In this document: positions 8,265-25,229 of the stretch, one piece after another | How positions within the stretch are numbered: the stretch's first letter is position 1 | Layout: each line of letters opens with the position of its first letter | Origin: Sphingopyxis sp. OAS728 | GTDB taxonomy: Bacteria; Pseudomonadota; Alphaproteobacteria; Sphingomonadales; Sphingomonadaceae | Assembly (NCBI RefSeq): GCF_014873485.1 | Contig: NZ_JADBDT010000001.1 | Location: forward strand, 4,706,501-4,770,500 | Direction of reading: 5' to 3' | DNA length: 64,000 bases | Translations under genes and position numbers: made by a program | Notes under the pieces: model-generated | What the model was told of the DNA's origin: nothing | What the model saw: the letters and a program-made list of their open reading frames with translations, nothing else | Databases searched by the model: none

Positions 8265-8349
8265 CGTCACGGCCTCATCCCTCCACGGGGGGATGGACTA
8301 TCGTGCGAAAGCTGACACGAACTTGTCGCGTAGCAGCAGGAAGGATGCC

Positions 8350-9270
8350 ATGCGGATCGTCGAATTGCCCGAGATACTGGACGCGCTGGACGAGGCGGCG
8401 GCGCTTGCCGCGGTCGAGGACGGGTTTCGCCGCCTTCATCGCGGTGGCGTACAACTCGCCGAGGTCGCGCATCTCAATTTCGAGCATCCCCCCGGCGATT
8501 GCCACGTCAAAGGCGGTTATATCGCCGGCGACGACGTCTTCGTCTTCAAATTTGCAACAAGCTTCTATCGCAATCCCGAACAGGGTCTGTCGTCGAGCAA
8601 CGGCTGCATGATCGTCGTGAGCGCGAAGACCGGCGAACAGCTTGCGATGCTTAAAGATCAGGGCATACTCACCGACACGCGCACCGCGATGGCGGGCGCA
8701 ATCGCCGCGCGCGCGATCGTGCGCCCGGGGTCAAAGATACTGGGTGTCGTGGGCACGGGCATTCAGGCCAAGATGCAGGGCGAAATGATCGCGCGTCTGC
8801 TCGGTCTCGATGAAATACTTGTCTGTGGACGTAGTCCTGACAAGGCCTTGGCGCTCGCTAACGACCTGGGCGGTGAGGCGGTCGATCTGGCCGAACTGTG
8901 CGCCCGCGCCGATCTGATCGTCACCACGACGCCGTCAACGTCGCCCGTGCTGACGGCCGATATCGTGCGGCCGGGGACGAGGATCGTTGCGGTCGGCGCC
9001 GACACGCCGGGCAAACAGGAACTCGAAACCGCGCTGACCGCGAAGGCGCGACTGATCGTCGATTCCGCAGTGCAATGCGCCCATCATGGCGAGGCCGGCT
9101 GGCCGATCCGCGCGGGGCAGATTGCGCCCGAAACGCTCGTCGAACTCGGCGCGCTGCTCGAAAATCCGGTCGCATTTCCCGACGACGAGATCGTCGTCGC
9201 CGACCTCACGGGCGTCGCAGTGCAGGACATCGCGATCGCCAAGACGGTGTGGGAACGGCTCGCGAACTAA
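8350..9270 (+). CDS. ornithine cyclodeaminase / mu-crystallin family protein
   Basis: 306 residues. The family includes ornithine cyclodeaminase, ketimine reductases, and alanine or lysine dehydrogenase-like enzymes. The NAD(P)-binding motif GVVGTGIQAKMQ lies at about 132-143. The substrate-pocket Lys (VFKFATSF) and Arg (DTRTAMA) are in their usual places, and VGADTPGKQEL provides the later conserved acidic region. The start is set at the ATG at 8350 with AGGAAGG just upstream; a longer frame from 8077 would run into the divergent regulator and adds non-homologous sequence. A bidirectional terminator follows at once. The specific reaction is not resolved. Confidence 0.85.
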   Translation: MRIVELPEILDALDEAAALAAVEDGFRRLHRGGVQLAEVAHLNFEHPPGDCHVKGGYIAGDDVFVFKFATSFYRNPEQGLSSSNGCMIVVSAKTGEQLAMLKDQGILTDTRTAMAGAIAARAIVRPGSKILGVVGTGIQAKMQGEMIARLLGLDEILVCGRSPDKALALANDLGGEAVDLAELCARADLIVTTTPSTSPVLTADIVRPGTRIVAVGADTPGKQELETALTAKARLIVDSAVQCAHHGEAGWPIRAGQIAPETLVELGALLENPVAFPDDEIVVADLTGVAVQDIAIAKTVWERLAN

Positions 9271-9333
9271 GGCGCGCAAACAAAAGGGGCGGCCGATCCG
9301 GACTCGATCGGCCGCCCCTTTTGTTTGCGCGCC
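9271..9333. terminator. bidirectional intrinsic terminator with a perfect 28-bp stem
   Basis: The arms at 9271-9298 and 9306-9333 are perfect reverse complements (28 bp) with a 7-nt loop at 9299-9305. The arms contain AAACAAAA on one side and TTTTGTTT on the other, so each strand supplies a U-rich 3' flank within the stem. It fills almost the whole gap between two convergent genes. Confidence 0.9.
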
Positions 9334-9343
9334 CTGCGCCTTG

Positions 9344-10444
9344 TCAGCCGCGCAACGCCGCCGAGATGGCGACCAGCCCCGCTTCCATCTCCTCGCGCGT
9401 CGGCCAGCCATAGCCAAGGCGGAAATAGGTATCGGGCAGGTCGAACCAGTGGCCGGGCGCCACATAGGTGCCATGGTCATTGAGCAACCGCTCGTAGAAG
9501 GCCGCGACGCCGCCTGCGGGTTCGCTGCGCATCCGTACGAAGCCGACAACTCCGCCTGACGGCTCGTTCCATTCGAGCATATCCTCGCCCGCCATCCATT
9601 CGATCGCGCGCGCGCGGCGCTGCCCCATCTCGGCGAGTGTTTCGGCGAGGACCTTGTCCTTCTGCGACAGAAGCTGCTCGGCGATCCACTCGTCGACGAC
9701 GCTGCCGCAGATCGCGATCTGCTCCTTCGCCGCGAGGAAAATCTCGTGCAGTTCGGGGTTCTGGACGATCAGCCAGCCCATGCGCGTGCCGGGAATGCCA
9801 TAGGCCTTCGACAGCGACGACACGCTGATCACATGCCTGCCGAGCGTCGCGGCGAGCGGGGTCAGCGTGCCGAAGCACAGCTCGCGATAGGTTTCGTCGA
9901 CCACCAGATAGGCGCCGGCTTCGGCGGCGATCTGCGCGAGGCGGCGGAGTTCCGCCTCGTCGGACAATATGCCGCTCGGGTTGTGCGGGTGGGTGATGCT
10001 GATGACCTTGGTCTTCGGCGTCACCGCGGCGGCAATCTGGTCGACGTCGGTACGAAAGCCGGTGTCGAAGGTCAGGTCGATATAGCTGATCTCGCACCCG
10101 ATCGCGCGCGGGGTTTCGAGGTTGAGCCCGTAGTTCGGCCGCACGACGACGATATGGTCACCGGGCGAAAGCAGTGCCGTCGCGATGATGAACAGCGCCC
10201 CGGCGGCCCCCGTGGTGACGAGCACATCGTCGGCGGTCAGCCCCGCACCATCGCGCGCGATCAGCGCTCGCAGCGACGTGCTGCCACGATGCTCGGTATA
10301 GAGCAGGGTGAGGTCGGGCACGGTCAGTCCGAGATCGGACAACTTGCGGTCCGAAATCGAACTTTCGGCCAGATTGTTGCGGATATTTCCGTACCCGAAC
10401 TCTTCGGGGGACTCGACCTCGATCGGAAGTCTTGCGTAACGCAT
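9344..10444 (-). CDS. class I/II PLP aminotransferase
   Basis: 366 residues, fold-type I. Lys213 in SSLSKAYGIPGTRMGW is the PLP lysine. Asn155 in HPHNPSG, Asp183 and Tyr186 in VVDETYREL, and Arg221 are the usual cofactor contacts. A carboxylate-binding Arg is expected near YFRLGYGW at the C-terminus. GAGGTGAG precedes the ATG. The substrate is not evident. The AraC-type gene lies 97 bp upstream on the same strand and may regulate it. With the dehydratase and ornithine-cyclodeaminase homologue it forms an amino-acid catabolic neighbourhood. Confidence 0.87.
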   Translation of the reverse strand: MRYARLPIEVESPEEFGYGNIRNNLAESSISDRKLSDLGLTVPDLTLLYTEHRGSTSLRALIARDGAGLTADDVLVTTGAAGALFIIATALLSPGDHIVVVRPNYGLNLETPRAIGCEISYIDLTFDTGFRTDVDQIAAAVTPKTKVISITHPHNPSGILSDEAELRRLAQIAAEAGAYLVVDETYRELCFGTLTPLAATLGRHVISVSSLSKAYGIPGTRMGWLIVQNPELHEIFLAAKEQIAICGSVVDEWIAEQLLSQKDKVLAETLAEMGQRRARAIEWMAGEDMLEWNEPSGGVVGFVRMRSEPAGGVAAFYERLLNDHGTYVAPGHWFDLPDTYFRLGYGWPTREEMEAGLVAISAALRG

Positions 10445-11479: not shown

Positions 11480-12145
11480 ATGCCGGCAACGCGCCAACCC
11501 ATTCCAACCGGAAGCGATCGGCGGACCGCCGTCGACGGCAATCCCGGGATATTCCTGAGGGAGCTGCGGATTGAAAAGGGATGGACGCTTGCCGAGGTGA
11601 GCGAGCGCACCCGTATTCCGGTTTCAACTTTGTCAAAGATTGAAACCGGCAAGATGTCGCTCAATTATGAAAAGCTTCTGCGGCTGAGCCAGGGGCTCGA
11701 CATTGACATCACGCAGCTGTTCGCGGCGGCGACGTCGGTCCCGGCCGCCACGCATACCGCCACCGGCCGGCGCAGCATCACGCCCGCCGGTGAGGGGCCG
11801 TCGATCAAGACGGCGACCTATAATTACACCTATCCGTCGGCGGATTTGCTCAACAAGACGCTCAATCCGATGATCATCGACATCAAGGTGCGCTCGATCG
11901 ACGATTTCGGCGATCTGATGCGCCACTCGGGGGAGGAATATGTCCTCGTGCTCGAAGGCGAATGCGATTTTCACACCGACATGTACGCGCCATCGCGCCT
12001 GAAAACGGGCGATTCGGCCTATTTCGACGCGTCGATGGGGCATGGCTATGTTGCGGTGGGCGATGGACCATGCCGTATCCTGTCGGTCTGCTCGGCAACC
12101 GATGCCGACCTGAAGTCGGCGCTTCATCCGGTCGAAACCGAATAA
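11480..12145 (+). CDS. XRE-family regulator with C-terminal cupin domain
   Basis: 221 residues. An N-terminal Cro/CI helix-turn-helix (about 24-76: FLRELRIEKGWTLAEVSERT... PVSTLSKIETGK) is joined to a cupin ligand-binding domain (about 140-205: HSGEEYVLVLEGE... LKTGDSAYFD). Regulators of this design control catabolism of amines, amino acids and peptides. GAAAGGA at 11468-11474 selects the ATG at 11480 over the one at 11453. It heads the D-amino-acid-type gene run, and AT-rich palindromes of a similar style occur before the next gene, before the dgcN-like gene, and before the TonB receptor at 28.8 kb, which suggests a shared regulon. Confidence 0.87.
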   Translation: MPATRQPIPTGSDRRTAVDGNPGIFLRELRIEKGWTLAEVSERTRIPVSTLSKIETGKMSLNYEKLLRLSQGLDIDITQLFAAATSVPAATHTATGRRSITPAGEGPSIKTATYNYTYPSADLLNKTLNPMIIDIKVRSIDDFGDLMRHSGEEYVLVLEGECDFHTDMYAPSRLKTGDSAYFDASMGHGYVAVGDGPCRILSVCSATDADLKSALHPVETE

Positions 12146-12262
12146 TCCTATAACCCTGACCCTGCGCTCCCGCTAATCGGCTCTCGCCGCCGATTCGGAA
12201 AATTCCGCCGTTCTGAAATTTGCCCGCGGCATCGCACCGCGGCTGCCCCGCCGCGTCCGCCA

Positions 12263-12327
12263 TTGACAAATTTTCGTTCTGGATGCCTATGTCCGGAATT
12301 GAAAATATTTCAAAAACTGAAATTTCA
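12263..12327 (+). promoter_or_regulatory. promoter and palindromic operator before the first serine hydrolase gene
   Basis: TTGACA at 12263-12268 and CTATGT at 12287-12292 (18-bp spacer) form a plausible sigma-70 promoter. Just downstream are TTGAAA-ATA-TTTCAA (12299-12313) and the perfect palindrome TGAAATTTCA (12318-12327), placed where a repressor would block initiation. The rest of the 224-bp gap shows no gene. The binding protein is not shown; the adjacent XRE-cupin regulator is the leading candidate. Confidence 0.5.
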
Positions 12328-12369
12328 TCGACAAGGCCGGCAAATGGCTACGTCGAAAGGGGAGGGCGA

Positions 12370-14343
12370 ATGCGGTTTATATGGTCTTGCGCAATGCTGG
12401 CTGCGGCGATGCTGGTCGGGGTCATGGCGCCATCGGTGACGCTGTCCGCCGCGCAAACGGCGCCCAAGCCGCTGGACGCGCGCGGCCCAAGCCCGTTGTC
12501 CGCCCCGGCGATGATCAAAAGCGACGTCGATGCGTGGCTCGATGGCTATATGCCCTATGCCCTCAAGCGCGGCGACGCGGCGGGTGCGGTGGTGGTGGTG
12601 GTCAAGGACGGCAAGGTGCTGACCCAGCGCGGTTTCGGTTACGCCGATGTCGGGAAGCGGCGGCCCGTCGATCCCGAAGCCACGCTTTTCCGGCAGGCCT
12701 CGGTGTCGAAGTTGATTACCTGGACGGCAGTGATGCGACTCGTCGAGCAGGGCAAGATCGATCTCGACAAGGACATCAATAGCTACCTCGATTTCAGGAT
12801 TCCGCCTTTCGCCGGCAAGCCGGTGACGATGCGCAACCTGATGACGCACACCGGCGGCTTCGACGAGGTGCAGCGCGGGCTCAACAGCTATGATCCGAAA
12901 AAGATCCCGTCGCTCGGCGAGGCGCTGAAGCGCCAGGTTCCGTACCGGATCTACGCGCCGGGCACGACGCCGGCCTATTCGAACTACGGCACCTCGCTGG
13001 CGGGCTATATCGTCGAGCGCGTGTCGGGGCTCCCCTATGATGATTATGTCGAGCGCCACATCTTTGCGCCCGCAGGCATGACGCGATCGACCTTTCGCCA
13101 GCCGCTTCCCGCACGGCTGAAGCCCTCGATGGCGAGCGGCTATATGCTGGGCTCGGGCAAGCCGGGGCCGTTCGAACTCAGCAGCCTCGCGCCGTCGGGC
13201 GCGATGACCGCGTCGGGCGCCGACATGGCGCGCTTCATGATCGCGCATCTCGAGAAGGGCGGCCCGCTCCTGAAACCCGCGACCGCGGCGCAGATGCACG
13301 ACACGATCCTTCGGCTGGTTCCGCCGCTCAACGGGATGGCGCTGGGATTTTACGAGCAGAATATCAACGGCCGCAAAGCGCTGTCGCACGCCGGCGACAG
13401 CCTCAATTTCCACAGCCAGCTCTGGATCTTCCCCGAGGAGAAGGTCGGCATCTATATGTCGATGAACGCCGCGGGGATGCAGAATGTGTCGGGGCCGATC
13501 CGCGCCTATCTGTTCGAAGCCTTCGCCGATCGCTACTTCCCGTTCGATGAGCGCGACGGCCGCGTTGATGCCGCAACCGCGCGCGAGCATGCGCGCATGA
13601 TGGTCGGCACCTACAACAAGACCCGGCGGCTCGAAACGAGCTTCCTGAAAGCGATGGAACTGGCCGGGCAGACGAAAGTCTCCCTCGATGGTGACGGCGG
13701 CATACGGGTGAACGCCGCGCCGGGCATCGGCGGCCAGCCGCGCAAATGGGTCGAAATAGCCCCGTTTTTGTGGCGCGAAGCCGATGGTAAGATGCGTCTC
13801 GCCGCGAAGGTCGAAAATGGCCGCGTCGTGCGTTTCAGCGTCGATTCGGCGTCACCCTATATCGCGTTCGATCGCGTGCCCTGGTATCTGTCGACCGCCT
13901 GGCTCACGCCGGCGATGCTCGTCAGCCTCGGCGCGCTGCTGCTCACCGCGATCGCCTGGCCCGTAGGGGCGATTGTCCGTCGCCGGTACGGCGTGAAAGC
14001 AGACCTCGCGCCCGCCGCGCTCAGAAGTTACCGATTGACGCGCGGCTTTGCGGCCCTCGCCGTCGCGGTGATGGTCGCGTGGATCCTGTTCGTGTCGACG
14101 CTGGTCAGCGATTTCTCGTCGCTCAGCGGCGAACTCGACTGGGCGCTGGTGACGCTGCAGATCGCGACGCCGATCATATTCCTAGGCCTGCTCGCCAGCA
14201 CGTTCTGGAACATCCGACACGTCTGGACGGGCAAGCGCGGGAGGTTCGCCAAATTCTGGAGCATCGTCTTGCTCGCCAGCGCCGTGGTCCTCCTGTGGAT
14301 CGGCGCGGGCTTCCACCTGATCGGCTTCGGGACCCGCTTCTGA
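12370..14343 (+). CDS. serine hydrolase (beta-lactamase/class C fold) with 4-TM C-terminal tail
   Basis: 657 residues. There is an N-terminal signal peptide to about residue 28 (ending LSAAQ), then a penicillin-binding/class C beta-lactamase fold: Ser111-V-S-Lys114 (SxxK), Tyr203-S-Asn205 (YxN), and HAGD as the likely third motif. The final ~150 residues hold about four hydrophobic helices (near 510-535, 563-585, 597-617, 630-652). The periplasmic hydrolase is therefore tethered to the inner membrane. Relatives include D-aminopeptidases, D,D-peptidases and esterases. GGAGG at 12361-12365 fixes the ATG. It has a close paralogue at 23238-25229, and the two bracket the gene run. Confidence 0.87.
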   Translation: MRFIWSCAMLAAAMLVGVMAPSVTLSAAQTAPKPLDARGPSPLSAPAMIKSDVDAWLDGYMPYALKRGDAAGAVVVVVKDGKVLTQRGFGYADVGKRRPVDPEATLFRQASVSKLITWTAVMRLVEQGKIDLDKDINSYLDFRIPPFAGKPVTMRNLMTHTGGFDEVQRGLNSYDPKKIPSLGEALKRQVPYRIYAPGTTPAYSNYGTSLAGYIVERVSGLPYDDYVERHIFAPAGMTRSTFRQPLPARLKPSMASGYMLGSGKPGPFELSSLAPSGAMTASGADMARFMIAHLEKGGPLLKPATAAQMHDTILRLVPPLNGMALGFYEQNINGRKALSHAGDSLNFHSQLWIFPEEKVGIYMSMNAAGMQNVSGPIRAYLFEAFADRYFPFDERDGRVDAATAREHARMMVGTYNKTRRLETSFLKAMELAGQTKVSLDGDGGIRVNAAPGIGGQPRKWVEIAPFLWREADGKMRLAAKVENGRVVRFSVDSASPYIAFDRVPWYLSTAWLTPAMLVSLGALLLTAIAWPVGAIVRRRYGVKADLAPAALRSYRLTRGFAALAVAVMVAWILFVSTLVSDFSSLSGELDWALVTLQIATPIIFLGLLASTFWNIRHVWTGKRGRFAKFWSIVLLASAVVLLWIGAGFHLIGFGTRF

Positions 14344-14346
14344 CGG

Positions 14347-14384
14347 GGCAGGGCGGGGCGCTCGGCATAGCCGCCCCGCCTGCC
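14347..14384 (+). terminator. GC-rich hairpin after the serine hydrolase gene
   Basis: GGCAGGGCGGGGCG (14347-14360) pairs with CGCCCCGCCTGCC (14372-14384) with one bulged G and an 11-nt loop. It begins 4 bp after the stop codon. It is followed by AAAAGAAAA rather than a T run, so it may attenuate transcription instead of fully terminating it. Confidence 0.45.
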
Positions 14385-14410
14385 GGCAAAAGAAAACTTC
14401 TCCAATCATA

Positions 14411-14439
14411 TTGCTTTTATCAAAATTTGAAAATAATGT
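14411..14439 (+). promoter_or_regulatory. promoter of the dgcN-like operon with palindrome in the spacer
   Basis: TTGCTT (14411-14416) and TAATGT (14434-14439) are spaced by exactly 17 bp. The spacer contains the palindrome TCAAA-A-TTTGA (14420-14430), an ideal position for a repressor. It resembles the TGAAA/TTTCA elements before the first serine hydrolase gene. Inference from position and sequence. Confidence 0.5.
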
Positions 14440-14523
14440 CCCAAACAGGTCAACAGGAGTGATTGCAGGATCGATACTGAGAAATCGGCCGATTCAGCCG
14501 CGCTTCCGAATTTGGTGAGAGAC

Positions 14524-15570
14524 GTGAACATTCAAACTTCCCTCGATGTCGCTGGCGGTGCCTTGCAGCTTCCGCAGCCCTATTTGCTGTTCCTCGGCGA
14601 CACGACGATCCGTGGTTATGCGAAGACCGCGTTCGGTCTTCGCGACTGGGCGCCCGAGAAATGCGTCGGCGAATATGCGCTGCGGGGTGCGACGGTCAGC
14701 GCCGGGCTGGAGCAGCTTGCACCGGCCGAAGCCAAGGCGCGCGGCGCGCGGTCGCTGCTCATCGGCGTCGCGAACAGCGGCGGCGTGATTCCCGAAAGCT
14801 GGATGCCGGCGCTCTTCGAAGCGCTCGAAGCGGGGCTCGATATTGTCAGCGGCATGCATATGCGGCTCGCCGATATGCCCGAACTCGCCGCGCGGGCCGA
14901 GCGCCTCGGTCGCCAGTTGATCGACGTGCGCCATCCGCCTGCCGGTCTGCCGGTCGGCACGGGCCGCAAGCGGAGCGGCAAGCGCCTGCTCACCGTCGGA
15001 ACCGACTGTGCGCTCGGCAAGAAATATACGGCGCTTGCGCTCGCGCGTGCCTTTGCCGCGCGCGGCGTCGACGCCGATTTCCGCGCGACGGGACAGACGG
15101 GCATCATGATCGCCGGCGGCGGCGTGCCGATGGACGCGGTCGTCTCGGATTTCGAGGCGGGCGCGGCGGAGACGGTGAGCCCCGACGCCGCCGACGATCA
15201 CTGGGATGTCGTGGAAGGGCAGGGCTCGCTGTTTCACCCCGCTTATGCCGCGGTATCGCTGGGCCTGCTCCACGGGAGCCAGCCTGACGTGATCGTCGTG
15301 TGCCATGAACCCGGTCGCGAAGAAATACTCGGATCTCCCGGCTACAGCTTGCCGAGCATCGAGGAAACGATCGATCTCAACCTGCGGCTGGGTAGCCGGA
15401 CCAATCCGGCGATCCGTTGTGCAGGCGTGTCCTTCAACACCGCGCATCTGGGCGAGGAAGAGGCCATCGCCCTGATGGCGGCCGAAAGCGAACGGCTCGG
15501 CCTCCCGGTCGCAGACCCGATCCGCGGCGGCGAAGCCTTCGCCCGTCTCGTGGATAGCTGTCTCGCATGA
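14524..15570 (+). CDS. dgcN: DgcN-like D-glutamate N-acetyltransferase (DUF1611 family)
   Basis: 348 residues. The family signature PYLLFLGD is at about 19-26, and a P-loop-like motif TVGTDCALGKKYTA at about 157-170. Characterised relatives named DgcN N-acetylate D-glutamate so that DgcA can racemise N-acetyl-D-Glu to N-acetyl-L-Glu. A DgcA-type gene lies 5.3 kb downstream in the same run, which supports the assignment. Candidate starts are TTG 14512, GTG 14515 and GTG 14524; the last is favoured by GGTGAGAG upstream. The stop overlaps the permease start (ATGA). The exact D-amino-acid substrate here is inferred. Confidence 0.75.
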   Translation: MNIQTSLDVAGGALQLPQPYLLFLGDTTIRGYAKTAFGLRDWAPEKCVGEYALRGATVSAGLEQLAPAEAKARGARSLLIGVANSGGVIPESWMPALFEALEAGLDIVSGMHMRLADMPELAARAERLGRQLIDVRHPPAGLPVGTGRKRSGKRLLTVGTDCALGKKYTALALARAFAARGVDADFRATGQTGIMIAGGGVPMDAVVSDFEAGAAETVSPDAADDHWDVVEGQGSLFHPAYAAVSLGLLHGSQPDVIVVCHEPGREEILGSPGYSLPSIEETIDLNLRLGSRTNPAIRCAGVSFNTAHLGEEEAIALMAAESERLGLPVADPIRGGEAFARLVDSCLA

Positions 15571-16724
15571 GCGCAGCGGCCATCCCGGCAGCGTCGGCTG
15601 GATCCTCCTGGTTCCAGCGCTTCCTGTTGCCGGGTTTCGCCTTCAAGGCCGTCGTGATCGGTGGCGGTTACGCCACCGGGCGCGAGCTCGCGGAATTTTT
15701 CCTGCCGAGTGGGCCGTGGGGCGGACTGGCGGCGATGCTGCTGGCAATGGTGCTGTGGAGCATCATCTGCGCGGTGACCTTCTCGCTCGCCCGCGCGATG
15801 GGCGCGTTCGATTATCGCAGCTTTTTCGAAGGGCTTCTGGGGCGCGCGTGGATCCTGTTCGAGGTCGGTTATGTCCTGCTCGTGACGCTCGTGCTCGCAG
15901 TGTTCGGCGCCGCGGCGGGCGAGATTGGCGCGTCGATCTTCGGCTGGCCGCCGCTCGCGGGAACGGCATTCCTCGCCGCGTCGATTGCGCTCTTCGTGAC
16001 CTTCGGCAATTCCTCGGTCGAGGGCCTGTTTAAATATGTCTCCTTCCTGCTCTACGGCGTCTACGCGCTGTTCATGGTCTTCGCGCTGAGCAGTTTTGGC
16101 GATGAGATTGCCGCGCGGTTCGCCATTCCCGCGCCGTCCGACGGCTGGATCCTCGGCGGCCTGACCTATACCGGATATAACGTCATCGGCGCGGTGGTGA
16201 TCCTGCCGGTGATCCGCCATCTGACCAGCCAGCGCGACGCGGTGACCGCGGGCCTGATCGCCGGCCCGCTCGCGATGGCGCCCGCGATCCTCTTCTTCGC
16301 CGCGATGATCGCTTTCTATCCGGGCATCGTGAGCGAAACGCTGCCGTCCGATTTCATGCTGCGGCAACTCGAAATGCCGCTGTTCCACCTGCTCTTCCAG
16401 TTCATGATCTTCGCGGCCCTGCTCGAAAGCGGCGCGGGCTCGGTGCACGCGATCAACGAGCGCGTCGATGCGGCGCGCCGGGCGCGCGGCGGGGCGCCGC
16501 TAGGCAAGCGGGCGCGCGCCGGTATCGCGGGCGCGCTGCTTGTCGGCTGCATGTTCCTCGCCGACCGCTTCGGCCTCGTGACGCTGATCGCCAGCGGTTA
16601 CCGCTTTCTCTCCTGGGTGTTCCTCGCGGTCTATGTCGCGCCATTGCTGACGGTCGGCCTGTACCGGCTGGTTCGCAGCCGGAAACAACAGCTTCAACCC
16701 GCCGTGCAGGGGAATGTGACGTGA
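15567..16724 (+). CDS. YkvI-type membrane transporter (APC/LeuT-fold superfamily)
   Basis: 385 residues with about ten hydrophobic helices and no signal peptide. The first helix carries the glycine-rich break KAVVIGGGYATGRELAEFF, as in YkvI/COG3949 permeases, which are distant relatives of LeuT-fold amino-acid transporters. It overlaps both neighbours (ATGA upstream, GTGA downstream), so it is translationally coupled to the dgcN-like gene and the hydrolase. The likely role is inner-membrane uptake of the amino acid or N-acyl amino acid processed by the locus; this is inferred from context. Confidence 0.78.
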   Translation: MSAAAIPAASAGSSWFQRFLLPGFAFKAVVIGGGYATGRELAEFFLPSGPWGGLAAMLLAMVLWSIICAVTFSLARAMGAFDYRSFFEGLLGRAWILFEVGYVLLVTLVLAVFGAAAGEIGASIFGWPPLAGTAFLAASIALFVTFGNSSVEGLFKYVSFLLYGVYALFMVFALSSFGDEIAARFAIPAPSDGWILGGLTYTGYNVIGAVVILPVIRHLTSQRDAVTAGLIAGPLAMAPAILFFAAMIAFYPGIVSETLPSDFMLRQLEMPLFHLLFQFMIFAALLESGAGSVHAINERVDAARRARGGAPLGKRARAGIAGALLVGCMFLADRFGLVTLIASGYRFLSWVFLAVYVAPLLTVGLYRLVRSRKQQLQPAVQGNVT

Positions 16725-17785
16725 CGAAAGTGACTGGCTGGGCGCGGATCCGGCTCTGGGGGAAGCGTATGTTGCTCGGGCTGCTTCTGCTGCTGATCCT
16801 GCTCGTCGTGGTGGGCGCGATTTATGAGGCCCTCGGCCGAAAAAGCGCCGCGGCGAACTATCCCCCGCGCGGGCAGATGGTCGATATCGGCGGACGCAAG
16901 ATGCACATCGACTGCCGCGGCACCGGATCGCCGACCGTCGTCTTCGAATCCGGCCTTGGTACGGGCGGGACGATCGACTGGACGCTGGTCCATGACGAGA
17001 TTGCCGGCTTCACGCGCGCCTGTGCCTATGACCGCGCCGGAATCATGTGGAGCGATGCAAAGGATACGCCGCAGCGTGCGTCCGCCGTCGCGGACGATCT
17101 TCATGCGCTGCTGAAGGGCGCGGGCATCACCGGTCCGCTGGTGCTCGTCGGCCATTCGATCGGCGGGCCCTACACGCGCACCTATGTCGGCAAATATGGC
17201 GAGCAGGTCGCGGGGCTGGTGATGGTCGACGCATCGCATCCCGACCAGGTCGCGCGGCTTGGCAAGGCCGTGAAGGTCGATGCGCATCCGCGGCAGGCGG
17301 GGTGGATCATGCACACCGCCACGGCGCTGTCGTGGACGGGCATCGTGCGCCTCGCGATGGCGAATGCCGGGCAGGGGAAATTGCCGAAGGACGCGGCGGC
17401 ACGGATGGCGGCCTATGCCAGCAAGTCGGTGCACGGTGCGACGTCCGAACTCGACGGCTTCGACCAGACGATGGACGACGCGCGCGCAGTCAAGAGTTTC
17501 GGAAACCGGCCGGTGATCGTGCTGACCGCTATGGCGCCGCTCAAGCCCGAAGAACTCAAGGGGTTGTCGTTGAAGGCATCGGACGGCGTGCGCTTCAAAC
17601 AGGAATGGAAGGCGCTCAACGCCGAACAGGCGGCACTTTCGACGCGCGGCCGCCAGCAGGTCGTGCCCGACGCGGGCCATTATATCCAGATCGACCGGCC
17701 CGATCTGGTGATCGCCGCAGTCCGCGAGGTCGTGAGCGATGTGCGCGCCGACCAGATAGGCGCCGATAAAGGGACCACCCGGTAA
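16721..17785 (+). CDS. membrane-anchored alpha/beta hydrolase
   Basis: 354 residues starting with GTG, coupled to the permease gene (GTGA). A single N-terminal helix (about 18-35, MLLGLLLLLILLVVVGA) probably anchors the enzyme with the catalytic domain in the periplasm. The nucleophile elbow is VGHSIGG (Ser146), and the C-terminal VPDAGHYIQIDRP supplies the catalytic His. HIDCRGTGSPTVVFESGLG is typical of the family. The substrate is unknown; within this locus an amide or ester of an amino acid is likely. Confidence 0.82.
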   Translation: MTKVTGWARIRLWGKRMLLGLLLLLILLVVVGAIYEALGRKSAAANYPPRGQMVDIGGRKMHIDCRGTGSPTVVFESGLGTGGTIDWTLVHDEIAGFTRACAYDRAGIMWSDAKDTPQRASAVADDLHALLKGAGITGPLVLVGHSIGGPYTRTYVGKYGEQVAGLVMVDASHPDQVARLGKAVKVDAHPRQAGWIMHTATALSWTGIVRLAMANAGQGKLPKDAAARMAAYASKSVHGATSELDGFDQTMDDARAVKSFGNRPVIVLTAMAPLKPEELKGLSLKASDGVRFKQEWKALNAEQAALSTRGRQQVVPDAGHYIQIDRPDLVIAAVREVVSDVRADQIGADKGTTR

Positions 17786-17831
17786 CGAAGGACGAAGATC
17801 GCGGGTCGTGGGGCCGCCGACAGGGAGAAGA

Positions 17832-19460
17832 ATGATGAAGCGTAAGATCCTCTTGGGTGCGATGTCGATGCTGCCGTTGTTGCTCGCCGCGAACACCCCG
17901 GCGCCCGAATATGACATCGTGATCCGCGGCGGCCGCGTGCTCGATGGCGCGGGCAGCCCGTGGGTCAGCGCCGACGTCGCGGTCAAGGACGGCCGGGTTG
18001 TGCGGATCGGCCGCGTTGCCGGGCGCGGTACCAGGGAAATCGACGCGACGGGCCGCTATGTCTCGCCGGGCTTCATCGACATGATGGACCAGTCGGGGCG
18101 CGTGCTGGTCAAGAATGGCGCGGCCGAGAACAAGCTGTTGATGGGCGTCACCACCGTCATCGCGGGCGAAGGCGGACCGCCCGCCGAGGCGGCGGAGATT
18201 CCGGCGCATTTCAGCCAGCTCGAAAAACAGGGCATCTCGGTCAATTACGGCACTTACTATTCGGCAACGCAGGCGCGCGTGAAGGTGATGGGCGATGGTG
18301 CCGGATCGCCAACCCCGGCGCAGCTCGACGCGATGGGGCGCGAGGTCAAGATCGCGATGGACAATGGCGCGTTCGGCATCACCAGCGCGCTGATCTATCC
18401 GCCGAGCAGCTTCCAGACCACGTCGGACCTTGTTACGCTGGCGAAGGTCGCGGCGCAGTGCGACGGCTTTTACGCCACCCACATGCGCGACGAGAGCGAA
18501 GGCCTCGTCAAGGCGATCGAGGAAGCGATCGAGATCGGCGAGAAGGGCGGGGTCAAGGTCGAGATCTTTCACCTGAAGGCCGCCTATGCCCCCGGCTGGG
18601 GCAAGCTGATGCCGCAGGCGGTGGCGACGATCAACGCGGCGCGCGCGCGCGGCGTCGATGTCGCCGCGGACCTTTATCCCTATACCGCGGGCGGCACGGG
18701 GCTCGAGATCATCGCGCCGAGCTGGGTGTGGGCCGACGGCGTGCAGAAGGGGATCGAACGACTGCGCGATCCCAAGGTGCGCGAAAGGATGAAGAAGGAG
18801 GTCGCCGCGGGTTCGATGCCCGGCTGGTCGAACCTCGTCCACGCATCGGGCGGCTTCGCCAACGTTCGTCTGGCGAACGGGTTCAGCGAAAAATACAAGC
18901 CGTACCACGGCAAGAGCCTCGCCGAGATCGGCAAGGCGCTCAATCGCGATCCCGCCGATGTCGCGTGGGATATCTTGCTCGAAGGCCTGCCGAACCGCTC
19001 GGTCGCGCTCTATTTCATGATGAGCGAGCAGGACATCGAGACCGCGATCAAGCAGCCGTGGGTCAGCATCGGCAGCGATGCGGCGGCGTCGGAGAAGCTG
19101 GGCGAGATGGACGCGCTCGGCCTGCCGCACCCGCGCGCCTATGGCACCTTCCCGCGCATCATCGCCGAATATGTGAAGCGTCGTCCGGTGCTGTCGCTCG
19201 AGGATGCGGTGCGCAAGATGACTGGCTGGCCGGCGCAGCGCATGGGGCTCACCGACCGCGGGCTGATCCGCGACGGGATGCGCGCCGATATCGTCGTGTT
19301 CGACTTGGACAAGCTCGACGATGTCGCAAGCTGGGAAAAGCCCACCGCGTCGCCGACCGGGATCGAGACGGTGATCGTCAACGGCGTCGTCACGATCGCG
19401 AATGGCAAGCATACGGGGGCCAAGGCCGGGGCAGTGCTGCGCCATAGCTGCGGCGTCTGA
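17832..19460 (+). CDS. D-aminoacylase-family amidohydrolase with altered metal site
   Basis: 542 residues with a signal peptide (ending near LLLAANT). Overall it matches N-acyl-D-amino-acid deacylases: YDIVIRGGRVLDGAG at the start, THMRDES with His217, FHLKAAY with His247, DLYPYTAGG, and GSDAAAS with the late metal Asp. Two hallmark sites differ. The PGFID-x-H-x-H motif is PGFIDMMDQ, so Met85 and Gln87 replace both His. The GNCG motif is GEGG, so the metal Cys is Gly114. It may bind one metal, act differently, or be inactive. GGGAGAAG precedes the ATG at 17832 or 17835. Confidence 0.82.
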   Translation: MMKRKILLGAMSMLPLLLAANTPAPEYDIVIRGGRVLDGAGSPWVSADVAVKDGRVVRIGRVAGRGTREIDATGRYVSPGFIDMMDQSGRVLVKNGAAENKLLMGVTTVIAGEGGPPAEAAEIPAHFSQLEKQGISVNYGTYYSATQARVKVMGDGAGSPTPAQLDAMGREVKIAMDNGAFGITSALIYPPSSFQTTSDLVTLAKVAAQCDGFYATHMRDESEGLVKAIEEAIEIGEKGGVKVEIFHLKAAYAPGWGKLMPQAVATINAARARGVDVAADLYPYTAGGTGLEIIAPSWVWADGVQKGIERLRDPKVRERMKKEVAAGSMPGWSNLVHASGGFANVRLANGFSEKYKPYHGKSLAEIGKALNRDPADVAWDILLEGLPNRSVALYFMMSEQDIETAIKQPWVSIGSDAAASEKLGEMDALGLPHPRAYGTFPRIIAEYVKRRPVLSLEDAVRKMTGWPAQRMGLTDRGLIRDGMRADIVVFDLDKLDDVASWEKPTASPTGIETVIVNGVVTIANGKHTGAKAGAVLRHSCGV

Positions 19461-19464
19461 AGAT

Positions 19465-20895
19465 ATGATGCGGATGATTTCGAGCCTTGTTCTCGCGCTT
19501 GCAGCCTCGGGACCGGCGCTTGCCGCCGCCCCGCCGATTGCGAAGCCCGAAGACCTCGGCACCGCGGTGTCGGCGCAGATCGCTTGTGCCAGCATCTTCG
19601 TCGCCGAACGCGCCGAGGCCGATGTGCTGCGCGACGATATCCATGCCTTTGCGCCGTTCATGACGGCGGTGACGCTGGCGGTCGACCGCGAGGCGCGGAC
19701 GGTGACGGCATCAGCGCCGGGCGCGGCGACGCGCACCGCGCTGTTTCGCCCGGTTGCGGGGTGCACACTGCTGACCGGCGATGTTTCCACCGCCGCGCTC
19801 GATGCACAGTCGGCGAAGCTGAAGCCGACGCGCGGCAACGCGGCGAAACGCTGGCCGATCGGCGACGCGCCGGTGCCCAAGCTCCAGGCGGCCGCCGAAG
19901 CCAGGCTCGACCGCGTCGCGCTCGACAAGGCGGTGCGCGCGGCCTTCGACGAACAGAATAAGGGCGGCTATCCTGACACCCGCGCGATCGTCGTCGTGCA
20001 GGGCGGGGCGATCGTCGCCGAACGCTATGCGCCCGGCTTTGACCGCAATACCGAACTGCTCGGCTGGTCGGCGTCGAAGAGCATCATGGGAACTTTGGTC
20101 GGCCTGCTGGTCGATGACGGCGTTCTCAAACTCGACGAACCGGCACCGGTACCCGAGTGGAAGGGCGAAGGCGACCCGCGCGCGAAGATCACGCTGCGCC
20201 AGTTACTCACCATGTCGAGCGGCCTGACCTTCAGCGAAAGCTATGTGCCCGGCAATGACTCGATCAAGATGCTGTTCGAGGCGGGCGACATGGGCGCGAT
20301 GGCGGCCGCGCTGCCGCTGAAGGATGCGCCGGGCACGAACTGGAGCTATTCGTCGGGCACGACCAATATCCTTTCGCGCATCGTGTTTCAGGCGACCGGC
20401 GGGACGCTTCAAGGCATGACGCGCTTTGCGCAAAAACGCCTGTTCGAGCCCACGGGCATGACCAGCGCGCTGATCGAGCCCGACGAGGCCGGCGTGCAGG
20501 TCGGCAGCTCCTACGCCTATGCCACCGCGCGCGACTGGGCGAGATATGGCCTGCTGCATCTCAACAAGGGCAAGGTCGGCGGCAAACAATTGCTCTCGAA
20601 ACAATGGCTCGATTTCGCGGTCACGCCGACCAGCGCGGCGCCGCGGCCCGTCTATGGCGCGCAGCTTTGGCTCAACCAGCCCGAGCCTGCCGGCGAACGC
20701 CGCAAGCTCTACCCCGACCTCCCTGCCGACACCGTCATGGCGCGCGGGCACAGCTTCCAGATCGTCGCGGCGATCCCGTCGCAGGATACGGTGATCGTCC
20801 GCCTCGGTTGGACTCCCGAGGGGCAGACTTTCGACTGGAACAAATATCTCTCGCAGATCGCCGCGGCGCTCGCGCCCGCTGTGCCTGCTTCCTGA
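19465..20895 (+). CDS. secreted serine hydrolase, NylB/class C beta-lactamase type
   Basis: 476 residues with a signal peptide (ALAASGPALAAAPP). After a ~130-residue N-terminal region comes the catalytic fold with Ser202-A-S-Lys205 (SxxK), a YSSGTTN motif for the Tyr position, and ARGHSFQIVA near the C-terminus. The layout resembles 6-aminohexanoate-dimer hydrolase (NylB) and related amidases and esterases that cleave small linear amides. It lies 4 bp after the D-aminoacylase-family stop; the ATG pair at 19465/19468 has only a weak ribosome-binding site, consistent with coupling. Confidence 0.84.
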   Translation: MMRMISSLVLALAASGPALAAAPPIAKPEDLGTAVSAQIACASIFVAERAEADVLRDDIHAFAPFMTAVTLAVDREARTVTASAPGAATRTALFRPVAGCTLLTGDVSTAALDAQSAKLKPTRGNAAKRWPIGDAPVPKLQAAAEARLDRVALDKAVRAAFDEQNKGGYPDTRAIVVVQGGAIVAERYAPGFDRNTELLGWSASKSIMGTLVGLLVDDGVLKLDEPAPVPEWKGEGDPRAKITLRQLLTMSSGLTFSESYVPGNDSIKMLFEAGDMGAMAAALPLKDAPGTNWSYSSGTTNILSRIVFQATGGTLQGMTRFAQKRLFEPTGMTSALIEPDEAGVQVGSSYAYATARDWARYGLLHLNKGKVGGKQLLSKQWLDFAVTPTSAAPRPVYGAQLWLNQPEPAGERRKLYPDLPADTVMARGHSFQIVAAIPSQDTVIVRLGWTPEGQTFDWNKYLSQIAAALAPAVPAS

Positions 20896-20915
20896 ACAAC
20901 CGAAGGATAGATTCG

Positions 20916-21926
20916 ATGACGACGCTAACCCCTCTCTCGCTCGACCTCGCGATTGAATCGCTCCCGCTCGCCAAGCCATTCCGCATTTCGGGGCATGTCT
21001 TCACCGACACGCCGGTCGTGCTCGTCACGCTGTCCGACGGCACGTACAGCGGGCGCGGCGAGGCGTCGGGGGTCTATTATCTCGGCGACGACGTGCCCGC
21101 GATGACGGCCGCGATCGAAAGCGTGCGCGGCGCGGTCGAGGCCGGGATCACGCGCGACCAGCTACAGGCGCTGCTCCCCGCGGGCGGCGCGCGCAATGCG
21201 CTCGATTGCGCGCTGTGGGAGCTGGAAGCCCGGCGCAGCGGCGTGCCCGTCTGGGAGCTCGCCGGCCTCGCCGAACCGCGCCCGCTTCGCACGACCTTCA
21301 CGCTCGGCGCCGACGATCCCGAGGTGATGGCCGAAGGCGCGCGCCATTATGCGCAAGCGCGCGCGCTCAAGCTCAAGCTCACCGGCGACCTCGACGTCGA
21401 TATCGCCCGCGTACAGGCGGTGCGCGCGGCGCGGCCCGAATGCTGGATCGGGGTCGATGCCAATCAGGGCTTTGCGATCGGCGATCTCGATACGCTCGTC
21501 GCGGCGCTGGTCGCCGCCGACGTCAAACTGCTCGAACAGCCGCTCGCGCGCGGGCGCGAGGCCGATCTCACCGGCTATCAATGTCCGATCCCGATTGCGG
21601 CGGACGAAAGCGCGCTGACGCTGGCCGATGTCGACGAGCTCGTCGGCCGCTTCGACGTCGTGAACATCAAGCTCGATAAGTGCGGCGGCCTGACCGAGGG
21701 CCTCGCCATCGCCCAGCGCGCCCGCGAACTCGGGCTTGGTGTCATGGTCGGCAATATGGTCGGCTCCAGCCTCGCGATGGCGCCGTCGTTCATCGTCGGA
21801 CAGCTCTGTGACATCGTCGATCTCGACGGCCCGATCTTCCTTGCGGACGATCGCAAGCCTTCGATCGAATATGTCGATGGCAACGCATGGTGCGGCGAGG
21901 CGATCTGGGGGCGCAAGCTCGGCTGA
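20916..21926 (+). CDS. dgcA: DgcA-like N-acetyl-D-glutamate racemase (enolase superfamily, MLE subgroup)
   Basis: 336 residues. It has all muconate-lactonising-subgroup catalytic elements: LKLKL with Lys152 and Lys154, metal ligands Asp181 (GVDANQG), Glu207 (LEQPL) and Asp230 (AADES), and the opposing general base Lys252 (NIKLDKCGG). Two opposed lysines are the signature of racemases and epimerases. Relatives are dipeptide epimerases and DgcA. The DgcN-like gene in the same run favours racemisation of N-acetyl-D-Glu; L-Ala-D/L-Glu epimerase activity is the alternative. AAGGA at 20903-20907 fixes the ATG; a longer frame reaching into the upstream gene is rejected. Confidence 0.85.
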   Translation: MTTLTPLSLDLAIESLPLAKPFRISGHVFTDTPVVLVTLSDGTYSGRGEASGVYYLGDDVPAMTAAIESVRGAVEAGITRDQLQALLPAGGARNALDCALWELEARRSGVPVWELAGLAEPRPLRTTFTLGADDPEVMAEGARHYAQARALKLKLTGDLDVDIARVQAVRAARPECWIGVDANQGFAIGDLDTLVAALVAADVKLLEQPLARGREADLTGYQCPIPIAADESALTLADVDELVGRFDVVNIKLDKCGGLTEGLAIAQRARELGLGVMVGNMVGSSLAMAPSFIVGQLCDIVDLDGPIFLADDRKPSIEYVDGNAWCGEAIWGRKLG

Positions 21927-21951
21927 TAACGATAACGGGACAGGGAGAGGC

Positions 21952-23241
21952 ATGATGAAAAAGACGATATTCGCGGGGCTCGCACTGGTCGCGCTGGCCC
22001 AGCCGGTCGCGGCGCAAGAACCGACGACGACCTATATCCACGCCGGCCGCCTGCTCGCCGATCCGGCGAGCGGCCGGGTCGAAACGAACAAGACTATCGT
22101 CGTCGAAGGCGGCAAGGTCGCCGCGATCCGCGATGGTTTCGTCGGCGAGGGCAAGGTCGTCGATCTTCGCGACCAGTTCGTCATGCCGGGCCTCATCGAC
22201 AGCCACGTTCATCTGACCTTTGAATCGAGCCCGACGAGCCGCCTCGATGCGGTGACCAAATCGACGGTCGATCAGGCGTTCGATGGCGTCGTCTTCGCCA
22301 AGCGCACCGTGCGCGCCGGGTTCACGACGGTGGTCGATCTCGGTTCCGATCCGCAGGCGATCAACGCGCTGCGCGATGCCACCGCGACAGGGAAGGTCAT
22401 CGGGCCGCGGATCATCGCCGCGGGCGGGGTCGCGGCGCATGGCGGGCATGGTGACGTCCATGGCTATCGGCAGGAAATCATCGACCTGTTCCGTTCGCCG
22501 ACGCTCTGCTCGGGCGCCGACGATTGCGCGCGCGCCGTCCGGCTGGCGGTGCAGCAGGGCGCCGACGTGATCAAGACCGCCTCGACCGGCGGCGTGATGT
22601 CGAACACCGCGGCGGGGCTCGGCCAGCAGATGAGCGACGCCGAATTGATCGCGATCGTCGACACCGCGCACCGTCTCGGCCGCAAGGTCGCCGCGCACGC
22701 GCATGGCACCGACGGGGTCAATGCCGCGCTGCGCGCCGGCGTCGATTCGGTCGAGCATGGTACCTATCTCGACGCGGAATCGATCCGGTTGTTCAAGGCG
22801 AAGGGCAGCTATCTCGTTCCCACGCTGCTCGCTGGTGACACCGTTGCGCGGCAGGCCGAAACCGCCGAGTGGATGCCCGCGCCGGTTCGCGCCAAGGCGC
22901 GCACGGTCGGACCGCTGATGGTCGATGCGCTGCGCCGCGCGCATAAGGGCGGGGTGCGCATCGCATTCGGGACCGACAGCGCGGTGTCGAAGCATGGCGA
23001 GAACGCCCGCGAATTCGCGCTGATGGTCAAGGCGGGGCTGACCCCGCTCGAGACGATCAAATCCGCGACCGTGTGGGCGGCAACACATGCCGGGCTTGAG
23101 GCCGAAATCGGCACGCTCGCCGCCGGCAAGTCGGCCGATATCGTCGCAGTGAAAGGCGACCCGCTGACTGACGTACGCACGCTCGAAACCATGGGCTTCG
23201 TCATGGCGCGCGGTGCCGTCGTGCGAGCGGCAGGGGAATGA
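21952..23241 (+). CDS. secreted amidohydrolase (imidazolonepropionase / Xaa-Pro dipeptidase-like)
   Basis: 429 residues with a signal peptide (ALVALAQPVAAQ). Complete metal site: His85 and His87 in MPGLIDSHVHL, the probable carboxylated Lys in DVIKTASTGG, His in AAHAHG, His in VEHGTY, and Asp in FGTDSAV. Related enzymes hydrolyse the C-terminal bond of dipeptides or N-acyl amino acids such as Xaa-Pro or Xaa-Lys. GGGAGAGG precedes the ATG pair at 21952/21955. It overlaps the next gene by 4 bp (ATGA) and follows dgcA by 25 bp. Confidence 0.86.
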   Translation: MMKKTIFAGLALVALAQPVAAQEPTTTYIHAGRLLADPASGRVETNKTIVVEGGKVAAIRDGFVGEGKVVDLRDQFVMPGLIDSHVHLTFESSPTSRLDAVTKSTVDQAFDGVVFAKRTVRAGFTTVVDLGSDPQAINALRDATATGKVIGPRIIAAGGVAAHGGHGDVHGYRQEIIDLFRSPTLCSGADDCARAVRLAVQQGADVIKTASTGGVMSNTAAGLGQQMSDAELIAIVDTAHRLGRKVAAHAHGTDGVNAALRAGVDSVEHGTYLDAESIRLFKAKGSYLVPTLLAGDTVARQAETAEWMPAPVRAKARTVGPLMVDALRRAHKGGVRIAFGTDSAVSKHGENAREFALMVKAGLTPLETIKSATVWAATHAGLEAEIGTLAAGKSADIVAVKGDPLTDVRTLETMGFVMARGAVVRAAGE

Positions 23242-25229
23242 CGATGCGCTCGATCAAGCTGTTCGCGATGCTGCCGCTCGTCCTGATGCTCGGCACGGCG
23301 GCGACGAAGCCGGCGACGCCGCTGGCGCCCGCCATCGCGCCCAAGCCGGCGGTCGAGACGCAAAAGGCCCCATCGCCCGTTGCAGCGCCGCTCGCAGTAT
23401 CGGCAACGCTGACGAAACAGGATGTCGATAGCTGGCTCGACGGCTTTGTGCCCTTCGCGCTCAAGCGCGGCGACCTCGCCGGCGCGGTGATCGTCGTGGT
23501 CAAGGACGGACAGGTGCTGACGCAGCGCGGCTTCGGTTATGCCGACGCCGCCAAGCGCACCCCGGTCGACCCCGCGCGCACGCTCTTCCGCCCCGGATCG
23601 GTGTCGAAGCTGTTCACCTGGACCGCGGTGATGCAGCAGGTCGAGGCGGGCAAGATCGACCTCGACGCCGACGTCAACACCTACCTCGATTTCAGGATCC
23701 CGCCGAAGGACGGCAAGCCCGCAACGATGCGCCAGCTGATGACGCATACCGCAGGGTTCGAGGAACATGGCAAGCTCACCATGTTCGAGGACAGGAAATT
23801 CCAGATCCCGCTCGGCGAGCTCGTGAAGGGCGGCATTCCGAACCGCATCTACACGCCGGGCACGACGCCCTCCTACTCGAACTATGGCACCGCGCTCGCC
23901 GGCTATATCGTCGAGCGCGTGACGAAAATGTCGTTCGACGATTATGTCGAACAGCGCATCTTCCAGCCGCTCGGCATGGCACAGTCGACTTTCAGGCAAC
24001 CTCTTCCCAAGGCGTTTGCGCCGTGGATGGCGACGGGGTATCGCCAGCTTTCGGCCGGGCCGTCGAAGTTCGAAATCGTCGGTCCGTCGCCCGCAGGCGG
24101 TCTCTCCTCGACCGGCGCCGACATGGCGAAATTCATGATCGCGCACCTCAATCAGGGCGCAGGGCTGATGAAGCCTGAAACCGCGCGAATGATGCACGAC
24201 ACACCGATGACGATCCTGCCGCCGCTCAACCGGATGGAGCTCGGCTTTTTCGAAACCAACATCAACGGGCGGCAGGTGATCGCGCATCTGGGCGACACGC
24301 AGCTGTTCCACACCGCGCTCCATCTGTTCACGAACGAAAATGTCGGCATCTATATGTCGTTCAACGCGACGGGCGAGCAGGCGTCGGTAGGCCCCGTGCG
24401 CCGCGCCTTGTTCGAGGATTTTGCCGATCGCTATCTGCCCGGCAACGAAATGCCCGCAACGCGCGTCGACGCAAAAACCTCGGCGGAACATGCGCAGATG
24501 CTCGCCGGCAATTGGCTCAACAGCCGCCGCGCGGAAACCAATTTCTACGCGATTGCGTCGCTGCTCGGACAGGTGAAGATCAGCGTCGGTCCCAAGGGCG
24601 AACTCATCGTCCCCGCCGCGCGCGACCTCAATGGAAAGCCCGCGAAATGGGTCGAGACCGCGCCCTTCGTCTGGCACAATGCCGACGGCCACGGCCGGCT
24701 CGCCGCGCAGGTCGTGGACGGCAAAGTCGTGCGCTGGAGCATCGACGGCATCTCGCCCTTCATGGTGTTCGACCGCGCGCCGGCGCCCAAGTCGGCGGCA
24801 TGGATCATGCCCGCGATGTATATCAGCCTCGGCGTGCTGCTGCTCACCCTGCTTCAGTGGCCGGCCTCGGCGCTGATCCGCCGTCATTACAAGGCGCCGC
24901 TGACGCTCGAACGCCGGTCGCTGCGTGTGTATCGCGGCGTCTGCGTGGCGTCGGGGCTGGTGCTCGCGCTCGTCGCAGCGTGGGTGATAAGCATGTCGAC
25001 ACTGAAAGCGCTGCCGTCCTACGATCCTTGGCTGTGGTTCCTCCAGATCGCGGGCCTGATCGTCCTCGTCGGCGGCGTCGTGCTGGCAGCTTGGGGTCTT
25101 CGCATCGTCCGTCAGGAGAAACGCGGCTGGTTTCGCACCCTCTGGGCGCTGCTGCTGCTCTTCGCGACGATCATGCCGCTGTATGTTGCGTGGACCTTCA
25201 GCCTGCTCGCGATGACGGTGAACTACTGA
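23238..25229 (+). CDS. second serine hydrolase with 4-TM C-terminal tail
   Basis: 663 residues, a clear paralogue of the protein at 12370-14343. Shared stretches include GYADAAKR-type sequence, RIYTPGTTPSYSNYG and FEDFADRY. It has a signal peptide, a Pro/Ala-rich linker (about 24-55), the catalytic Ser121-V-S-Lys124, YSN, and a HLGD third motif. The C-terminal ~150 residues hold about four membrane helices. Whole-gene duplication is likely. It is the last gene of the run and is followed by a strong terminator. Confidence 0.86.
   Translation: MTMRSIKLFAMLPLVLMLGTAATKPATPLAPAIAPKPAVETQKAPSPVAAPLAVSATLTKQDVDSWLDGFVPFALKRGDLAGAVIVVVKDGQVLTQRGFGYADAAKRTPVDPARTLFRPGSVSKLFTWTAVMQQVEAGKIDLDADVNTYLDFRIPPKDGKPATMRQLMTHTAGFEEHGKLTMFEDRKFQIPLGELVKGGIPNRIYTPGTTPSYSNYGTALAGYIVERVTKMSFDDYVEQRIFQPLGMAQSTFRQPLPKAFAPWMATGYRQLSAGPSKFEIVGPSPAGGLSSTGADMAKFMIAHLNQGAGLMKPETARMMHDTPMTILPPLNRMELGFFETNINGRQVIAHLGDTQLFHTALHLFTNENVGIYMSFNATGEQASVGPVRRALFEDFADRYLPGNEMPATRVDAKTSAEHAQMLAGNWLNSRRAETNFYAIASLLGQVKISVGPKGELIVPAARDLNGKPAKWVETAPFVWHNADGHGRLAAQVVDGKVVRWSIDGISPFMVFDRAPAPKSAAWIMPAMYISLGVLLLTLLQWPASALIRRHYKAPLTLERRSLRVYRGVCVASGLVLALVAAWVISMSTLKALPSYDPWLWFLQIAGLIVLVGGVVLAAWGLRIVRQEKRGWFRTLWALLLLFATIMPLYVAWTFSLLAMTVNY

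Follow-up and report, generated by a model that had tools for sequence, protein, structure and literature searches.

A conserved locus around DgcN- and DgcA-like proteins in Sphingopyxis and its possible role in the use of peptides containing neutral D-amino acids

We examined a 64,000-nucleotide stretch of the Sphingopyxis sp. OAS728 genome (contig NZ_JADBDT010000001.1, positions 4,706,501 to 4,770,500; hereafter the window, whose own coordinates are used below), which carries a run of genes around DgcN- and DgcA-like proteins at 11480-25229. The ten genes that a sequence-only reading had listed were all found there, on the plus strand. The first encodes a regulator with an XRE-family helix-turn-helix and a cupin domain (Pfam HTH_3 and Cupin_2; 11480-12145, start possibly at 11453), and the second an S12 serine hydrolase (PF00144; 12370-14343) with a hydrophobic N terminus and, by transmembrane (TM) scan, C-terminal TM helices. 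They are followed by a DgcN-like DUF1611 protein of a distinct group, a putative N-acyltransferase (PF07755/PF17396; about 14515-15570); a YkvI-family permease (15567-16724); an alpha/beta hydrolase with one N-terminal TM anchor by the same scan (PF12697/PF00561; 16721-17785); a D-aminoacylase relative whose start resembles a signal peptide (3gip and 1rjp as best PDB matches; 17832-19460); an S12 serine hydrolase of a second type with a hydrophobic N terminus in the TM scan (PF00144, SASK and YSSG motifs; 19465-20895); a DgcA-like enolase-superfamily racemase (20916-21926); an amidohydrolase with a signal-peptide-like start (21952-23241); and a last S12 hydrolase (PF00144; 23238-25229) composed of a signal-like start, the S12 domain, a beta-rich domain and four C-terminal helices. 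The first and last S12 proteins are 51% identical to each other. In the run that starts with the DgcN-like gene and ends with the last S12 gene, the DgcN/permease, permease/hydrolase and amidohydrolase/S12 junctions are 4-bp overlaps and the remaining ones gaps of 4 to 46 bp; we therefore read these genes as one operon. Convergent to it lies a gene for a TonB-dependent receptor (Pfam; 26073-28856, minus strand), which probably belongs to the gene set as its outer-membrane entry.

Relatives of the locus were taken as the best 80 of 274 confirmed loci from a genome scan with three related DgcN sequences (hereafter the subclade loci); they are not independent, 49 being left after thinning at 85% DgcN identity. 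For comparison we used 20 loci containing a dgcN of canonical type (48-54% identity to that of the window) and 20 control regions. Counts come from family hidden Markov models (HMMs) trained on the 80 loci themselves, which favors these over the controls, and are lower bounds, a simple open reading frame (ORF) caller having recovered DgcN in 74 of the 80 loci where tblastn recovered it in all 80. The 80 loci are mostly from sphingomonads, with others from Lysobacter and kin, Rhodanobacteraceae, Steroidobacteraceae and some metagenome bins, one of them labelled Chthoniobacterales. The sequence-only reading had made co-location of the orthologues in relatives its own test, and co-located they are: at least four of eight core families occur together in 68 of the 80 relatives, against 1 of 20 canonical-dgcN loci and 0 of 20 control regions, and the grouping is therefore more than chance.

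By family, the subclade and canonical loci compare as follows: XRE-cupin 62 of 80 and 1 of 20, long S12 74 and 5, other S12 56 and 5, YkvI permease 50 and 0, DgcA 44 and 9, M19 peptidase 44 and 0, D-aminoacylase relative 40 and 12, and TonB receptor 63 and 12; the control regions gave 0 for every family except TonB (5 of 20). With score thresholds applied (100 bits for XRE-cupin), neither XRE-cupin nor long S12 is left in any of the 20 canonical loci, and long S12 stands at 72 of 80 in the subclade. The thinned set of 49 retains XRE-cupin in 36, long S12 in 42, permease in 30, DgcA in 32, M19 in 24 and TonB in 39. Twenty of the 80 loci could be assigned to Gammaproteobacteria from their titles; these have XRE-cupin (18), long S12 (19), TonB (19), other S12 (14), DgcA (13) and permease (12), with M19 in just 6 and the D-aminoacylase relative in 5, compared with 38 and 35 among the other 60. 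The commonest neighbor pairs, ignoring unlabelled ORFs, are DgcN followed by permease (45 of 80), divergent XRE-cupin and S12 (44), TonB followed by DgcN (40) and S12 followed by DgcA (31). The gene order of the window (R S N P h D s A m S) recurs in five loci (L014-L017, L020), and near variants occur, for example in L018, L019 and L024. A family of 568-residue ORFs (L052 12084-13790), without a match in Pfam, probably represents an antisense artefact.

The host genome, 4.92 Mb on one contig, contains four DUF1611 genes and four DgcA-type genes. Three of the DUF1611 genes share 70-76% mutual identity and about 50% with the fourth, and each lies within a cluster, the first being the locus described here. 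Cluster 2 (C1:4793-4807 kb), whose DgcN is about 81 kb to the right of the window's, holds a D-aminoacylase relative, two XRE-cupin genes, and long S12, DgcA-like, M19, TonB, DgcN-like, permease and other S12 genes, with a further M19. Cluster 3 (C1:3990-4004 kb) holds genes for a TonB receptor (47% identical to that at 26073-28856), two S15 peptidases, M19, a DgcN-like protein, two S12 proteins and a D-aminoacylase relative; its labelled genes include neither a DgcA nor a permease or regulator. The fourth DUF1611 gene is a canonical dgcN adjoining dgcA (C1:3715-3717 kb). Nearby are a symporter of the sodium:dicarboxylate family (SDF), a regulator of the ROK type and a D-aminoacylase relative that has HxH; the fourth DgcA-type gene is isolated at C1:3463 kb.

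Co-inheritance was examined in 199 genomes from the host's family, with identity cut-offs chosen by eye post hoc (at least 60% for the DgcN-like group, at least 54% for the DgcA-like group). The DgcN-like protein has 30 carriers, the permease 31 and the DgcA-like protein 29; DgcN-like and permease occur together in 29 genomes (Fisher p = 2e-31), and DgcN-like and DgcA-like in 28 (p = 1e-30). Of 38 permease matches, 33 lie no more than 15 kb from a DgcN of this group, as do 32 of 36 DgcA matches; conversely, 34 of 46 such DgcN genes have a permease, and 33 of 46 a DgcA, within that distance.

A 31-bp element with the consensus TTTGACAATTTTCTAATCAGGATCATTATGT lies between the divergent regulator and S12 genes. 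It is matched at 22 or more of its 31 positions in 40 of 45 divergent loci (the exceptions are L033, L026, L052, L021 and L035); the best match in shuffled sequence was 18. A position weight matrix (PWM) built from 18 distinct sites, which themselves score 36-51, reached at most 2.8 on both strands of the 20 control regions; sites scoring at least 8 were found in 21 of 28 further relatives scanned and, over all 34 loci that the scan covered, in 23, the 11 with no such site being L010-L013, L023, L027, L036, L042, L050, L058 and L067. The window has a diverged copy (TTGACA...GGAT...TATGT) at 12262-12292 on the plus strand, in front of the first S12 gene, with a PWM score of 14.2; because of this promoter-like element the S12 start was placed at ATG 12370 rather than at an upstream TTG. 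In the 17 same-strand cases the first site scan covered the span upstream of the regulator only, and the window's site lies outside that span. A 28-base pattern, for which the window's own element is too divergent, occurs twice in the host genome with up to 3 mismatches, both times in cluster 2, and its reversed control does not occur. Thirteen of the 80 loci have a reverse-strand XRE-cupin gene after an S12 gene (e.g., L009:14510-14917); cluster 2 also has a second regulator gene of this kind, with a separate copy of the promoter element (PWM 30.5) preceding M19. The PWM scan found no element in cluster 3. As judged from these matches, the element is common to Alpha- and Gammaproteobacteria, and from its position it may be the operator bound by the XRE-cupin protein; a dyad search for an operator gave only weak dyads, limited to single loci.

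By curated score cut-offs, the core pair lies outside the DgcN and DgcA equivalog families. Against NF041892 (cut-off 480) the window's DgcN-like protein scores 460.4 bits and its paralogues in the two other clusters 445.1 and 438.0, whereas the host's canonical DgcN passes with 510.1. The window's protein is 51% identical to that canonical DgcN and 76 and 72% identical to the cluster paralogues, the group being defined by identity and not by a tree. Against NF042940 (cut-off 400) the DgcA-like proteins of the window and cluster 2 score 375.1-376.1 and 357.4 bits, and the canonical DgcA passes with 421.9.

The window's DgcA-like protein falls in the dipeptide epimerase / N-acyl amino acid racemase branch of the enolase superfamily. 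The KxK, the D/E/D metal ligands and the second Lys, which we take to be the catalytic residues of this branch, are each kept in at least 46 of 47 subclade rows, one row (L067_17262) being a spurious ORF and not a DgcA. In a tree these proteins form a separate clade (46 rows, support 99/99), and the clade differs in the 20s loop, where the SRGxK of canonical DgcA is replaced in the window by SGHVF: Gly is found in 46 of 46 and Phe in 44 of 46 true rows, at positions that hold Arg in 9 of 10 and Lys in 8 of 10 canonical rows, and Arg and Arg in both E. coli AEE and 4gfi. Two canonical-locus rows also depart from SRGxK, L102 (SRGTT) and L103 (ASSLY), the latter on a long branch whose placement may be wrong. 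The two basic loop residues of D-Glu-type DgcA and AEE, presumably the holders of an acidic side chain, have been lost in this clade.

The permease had no match in a Pfam search; its relatives carry the name YkvI family membrane protein in some sources. Its AlphaFold2 model (pLDDT 88.3, pTM 0.84) has a LeuT/APC fold and is nearest to LAT/asc amino-acid carriers (Foldseek, VIA-align), so that source name and predicted fold agree with assignment to the YkvI family. A dicarboxylate-family symporter is found in 10 of 20 canonical loci and in 1 of 80 subclade loci. A POT-family peptide transporter gene was seen in 16 of 80 loci (e.g., L025:739-2103) and in 0 of 20 canonical loci.

These findings bear on the substrate. 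On the sequence-only reading, peptidoglycan peptides or poly-gamma-glutamate would be the source of D-glutamate that the locus scavenges by means of DgcN and DgcA, in keeping with the family relationship of the two enzymes and with the D-aminoacylase relative having N-acyl-D-glutamate deacylase as its best PDB match. This focus is not supported: the basic loop of DgcA is lost, both enzymes score under the curated cut-offs, the permease is LAT/asc-like where the canonical pathway has the dicarboxylate-family symporter (not found in 79 of the 80 loci), and a canonical pair next to a symporter of that family is present elsewhere in the host genome. We now regard D-glutamate scavenging as unlikely. 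Because of the loop residues, the cut-offs and the transporter type, we read the substrates instead as probably neutral D-amino acids.

All 95 homologues of the long S12 type that were aligned have the SxxK, YxN and HxG motifs expected of S12 proteins. An alignment of the long S12 protein with the Lip3 DL-peptidase (9sn1) spans residues 57-663 at 19% identity, and D-amino-acid amidase, alkaline D-peptidase and ClbP are also among its structural matches; a PBP homologue (2qmi) and an esterase (7spn) score equal to or above the Lip3-type matches. From the fold match alone, the long S12 proteins may be DL-peptidases. The D-aminoacylase-family protein of the sequence-only reading is indeed a relative, but it lacks the HxH and the Cys that we take to be metal ligands of D-aminoacylase (GFIDMMDQSG / GEGG), retaining two His and an Asp; HxH is lost in 41 of 47 subclade rows and kept in 15 of 16 canonical-locus rows (L011, L094-L113). 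The amidohydrolase belongs, by its PDB relatives, to the Xaa-Pro dipeptidase / Cc2672 / ochratoxinase branch, though at 355.6 bits it is under the NF051886 cut-off of 500. M19 enzymes cleave L-Xaa-D-Xaa dipeptides. Searches of the host genome gave 7 matches to M19 and 39 to the DAO family.

Several further genes of related kinds were observed. Five of the 80 loci have a class A beta-lactamase-like gene close to the DgcN of the group (e.g., L073:2864-3847). In the window, a minus-strand set at 33532-39273 encodes an ornithine cyclodeaminase-family protein, an M19 dipeptidase, a TonB receptor and an amidohydrolase, the last 25% identical to the locus's own. At 8077-10444 another ornithine cyclodeaminase-family gene adjoins a PLP enzyme gene whose best NCBIfam scores, to GntC and capreomycidine synthase, are all under cut-off.

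The fold matches of the long S12 protein to Lip3 DL-peptidase and ClbP could also be read as defence joined to feeding, with S12 DL-peptidases cutting nonribosomal D-residue (lipo)peptide antibiotics, an acylase removing the fatty-acid cap and the rest being eaten. Such loci are present in Lysobacter, Stenotrophomonas and sphingomonads, and Stenotrophomonas maltophilia has been reported to degrade lipopeptides to amino acids (PMC12516957), although the sections of that report considered here name D-stereospecific peptidases only as future work. This proposal has no substrate evidence behind it, and DgcN/DgcA and the permease point to nutrition rather than to defence alone; we give it little credence as it stands, while noting that it overlaps our best explanation, the main difference being the polymer eaten. 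A link to microcystin breakdown by the mlr pathway was also considered: no match to MlrC (PF07171) was found in the host, but the 14 control genomes gave none either, so that this negative does not count against the link. The 80 loci include ones from Sphingosinicella microcystinivorans and Sphingopyxis microcysteis, as well as from many other species. Least probable is that the DgcA-like protein is a dipeptide epimerase for imported L-Xaa-D-Xaa dipeptides, the DgcN-like protein modifying something else, for although it shares a family and the DLDGP motif with AEE, and some loci have the POT transporter noted above, 9 of 10 control rows share that motif, which therefore does not discriminate, the DgcN-like and DgcA-like groups are co-inherited, and the adjacent permease is of the amino-acid type.

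On balance we lean towards the view that the locus catabolises peptides with neutral D-amino acids through N-acylation and racemisation, in an organization like that of a polysaccharide utilisation locus (PUL). The observations above cover gene content and its conservation, co-inheritance, the way the enzymes separate from canonical ones, folds and promoter conservation; from these we infer the catalytic steps, the chirality and side chain of the substrate, the direction of transport and the binding of the regulator. The TonB receptor would bring oligopeptides into the periplasm, where membrane-anchored and soluble S12 hydrolases, together with M19 dipeptidases in many relatives and the carboxypeptidase-like amidohydrolase, would cleave bonds beside D-residues, and the exported D-aminoacylase relative may strip N-acyl caps. 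The LAT-like permease would import free D-amino acids, to be N-acylated by the DgcN-like enzyme and converted from N-acyl-D to N-acyl-L forms by the DgcA-like racemase, the whole operon being controlled by the XRE-cupin protein at the conserved promoter element.

The regulated outside-to-inside layout of the earlier proposal is retained, the genes being apparently under joint control and gene content being kept in sphingomonads and beyond. Its claim of a complete route is not, since deacylation of N-acyl-L-amino acids is not evident in the locus and would be left to an enzyme encoded elsewhere. No M20 deacylase was found in the locus, other deacylase families being outside the search. The host's lone DgcA-type gene also scores under the DgcA cut-off (393.5 bits against 400 for NF042940), which slightly lowers our confidence in the explanation as a whole. 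The host genome has 17 M20 matches, one at window 4418-5320; the M20-family gene there (4373-5623, minus strand) is a candidate for N-acyl-L-amino-acid deacylation.

The nearest known system is the DgcN-DgcA D-glutamate pathway (NF041892, NF042940), which likewise pairs a DUF1611 protein with an enolase-superfamily racemase and has a D-aminoacylase relative nearby in many loci; it reportedly serves acidic D-amino acids and their amides. The present locus departs from it in its sub-cut-off pair, in a DgcA clade of its own with a non-cationic loop, in its LAT/asc-like permease in place of the dicarboxylate-family symporter, and in the added S12, M19, TonB and XRE-cupin genes. Its long S12 protein stands at 19% identity to Lip3, and an activity like that of Lip3, ClbP or alkaline D-peptidase is putative, suggested by fold. 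Like PULs, the locus combines a regulator of its own with a TonB receptor, exported hydrolases, a carrier in the inner membrane and conversion in the cytosol, and has related copies elsewhere in the genome, but it has peptide and D-amino-acid enzyme families among the scanned genes where PULs have carbohydrate ones. The earlier judgement that the combination was undescribed held, no description having been found in the literature searched.

More broadly, and tentatively, DgcN/DgcA may be a general N-acylate-and-racemise chassis, of which one branch has been retuned to neutral D-amino acids in multi-copy "D-peptide utilisation loci" of Alpha- and Gammaproteobacteria with their own receptor, DL-peptidases and permease and with a conserved operator for the XRE-cupin regulator. 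Such use of the D-glutamate enzyme pair would be new, if true, and DUF1611/enolase pairs that carry a D-Glu annotation may have other D-amino acids as substrates; the locus supplies a clear enzyme set for assay. The D-amino acids of cell walls, lipopeptides and aged organic matter are considered recalcitrant, and the locus, if our interpretation is right, would explain how sphingomonads and lysobacters feed on D-residue material, possibly including peptide antibiotics.

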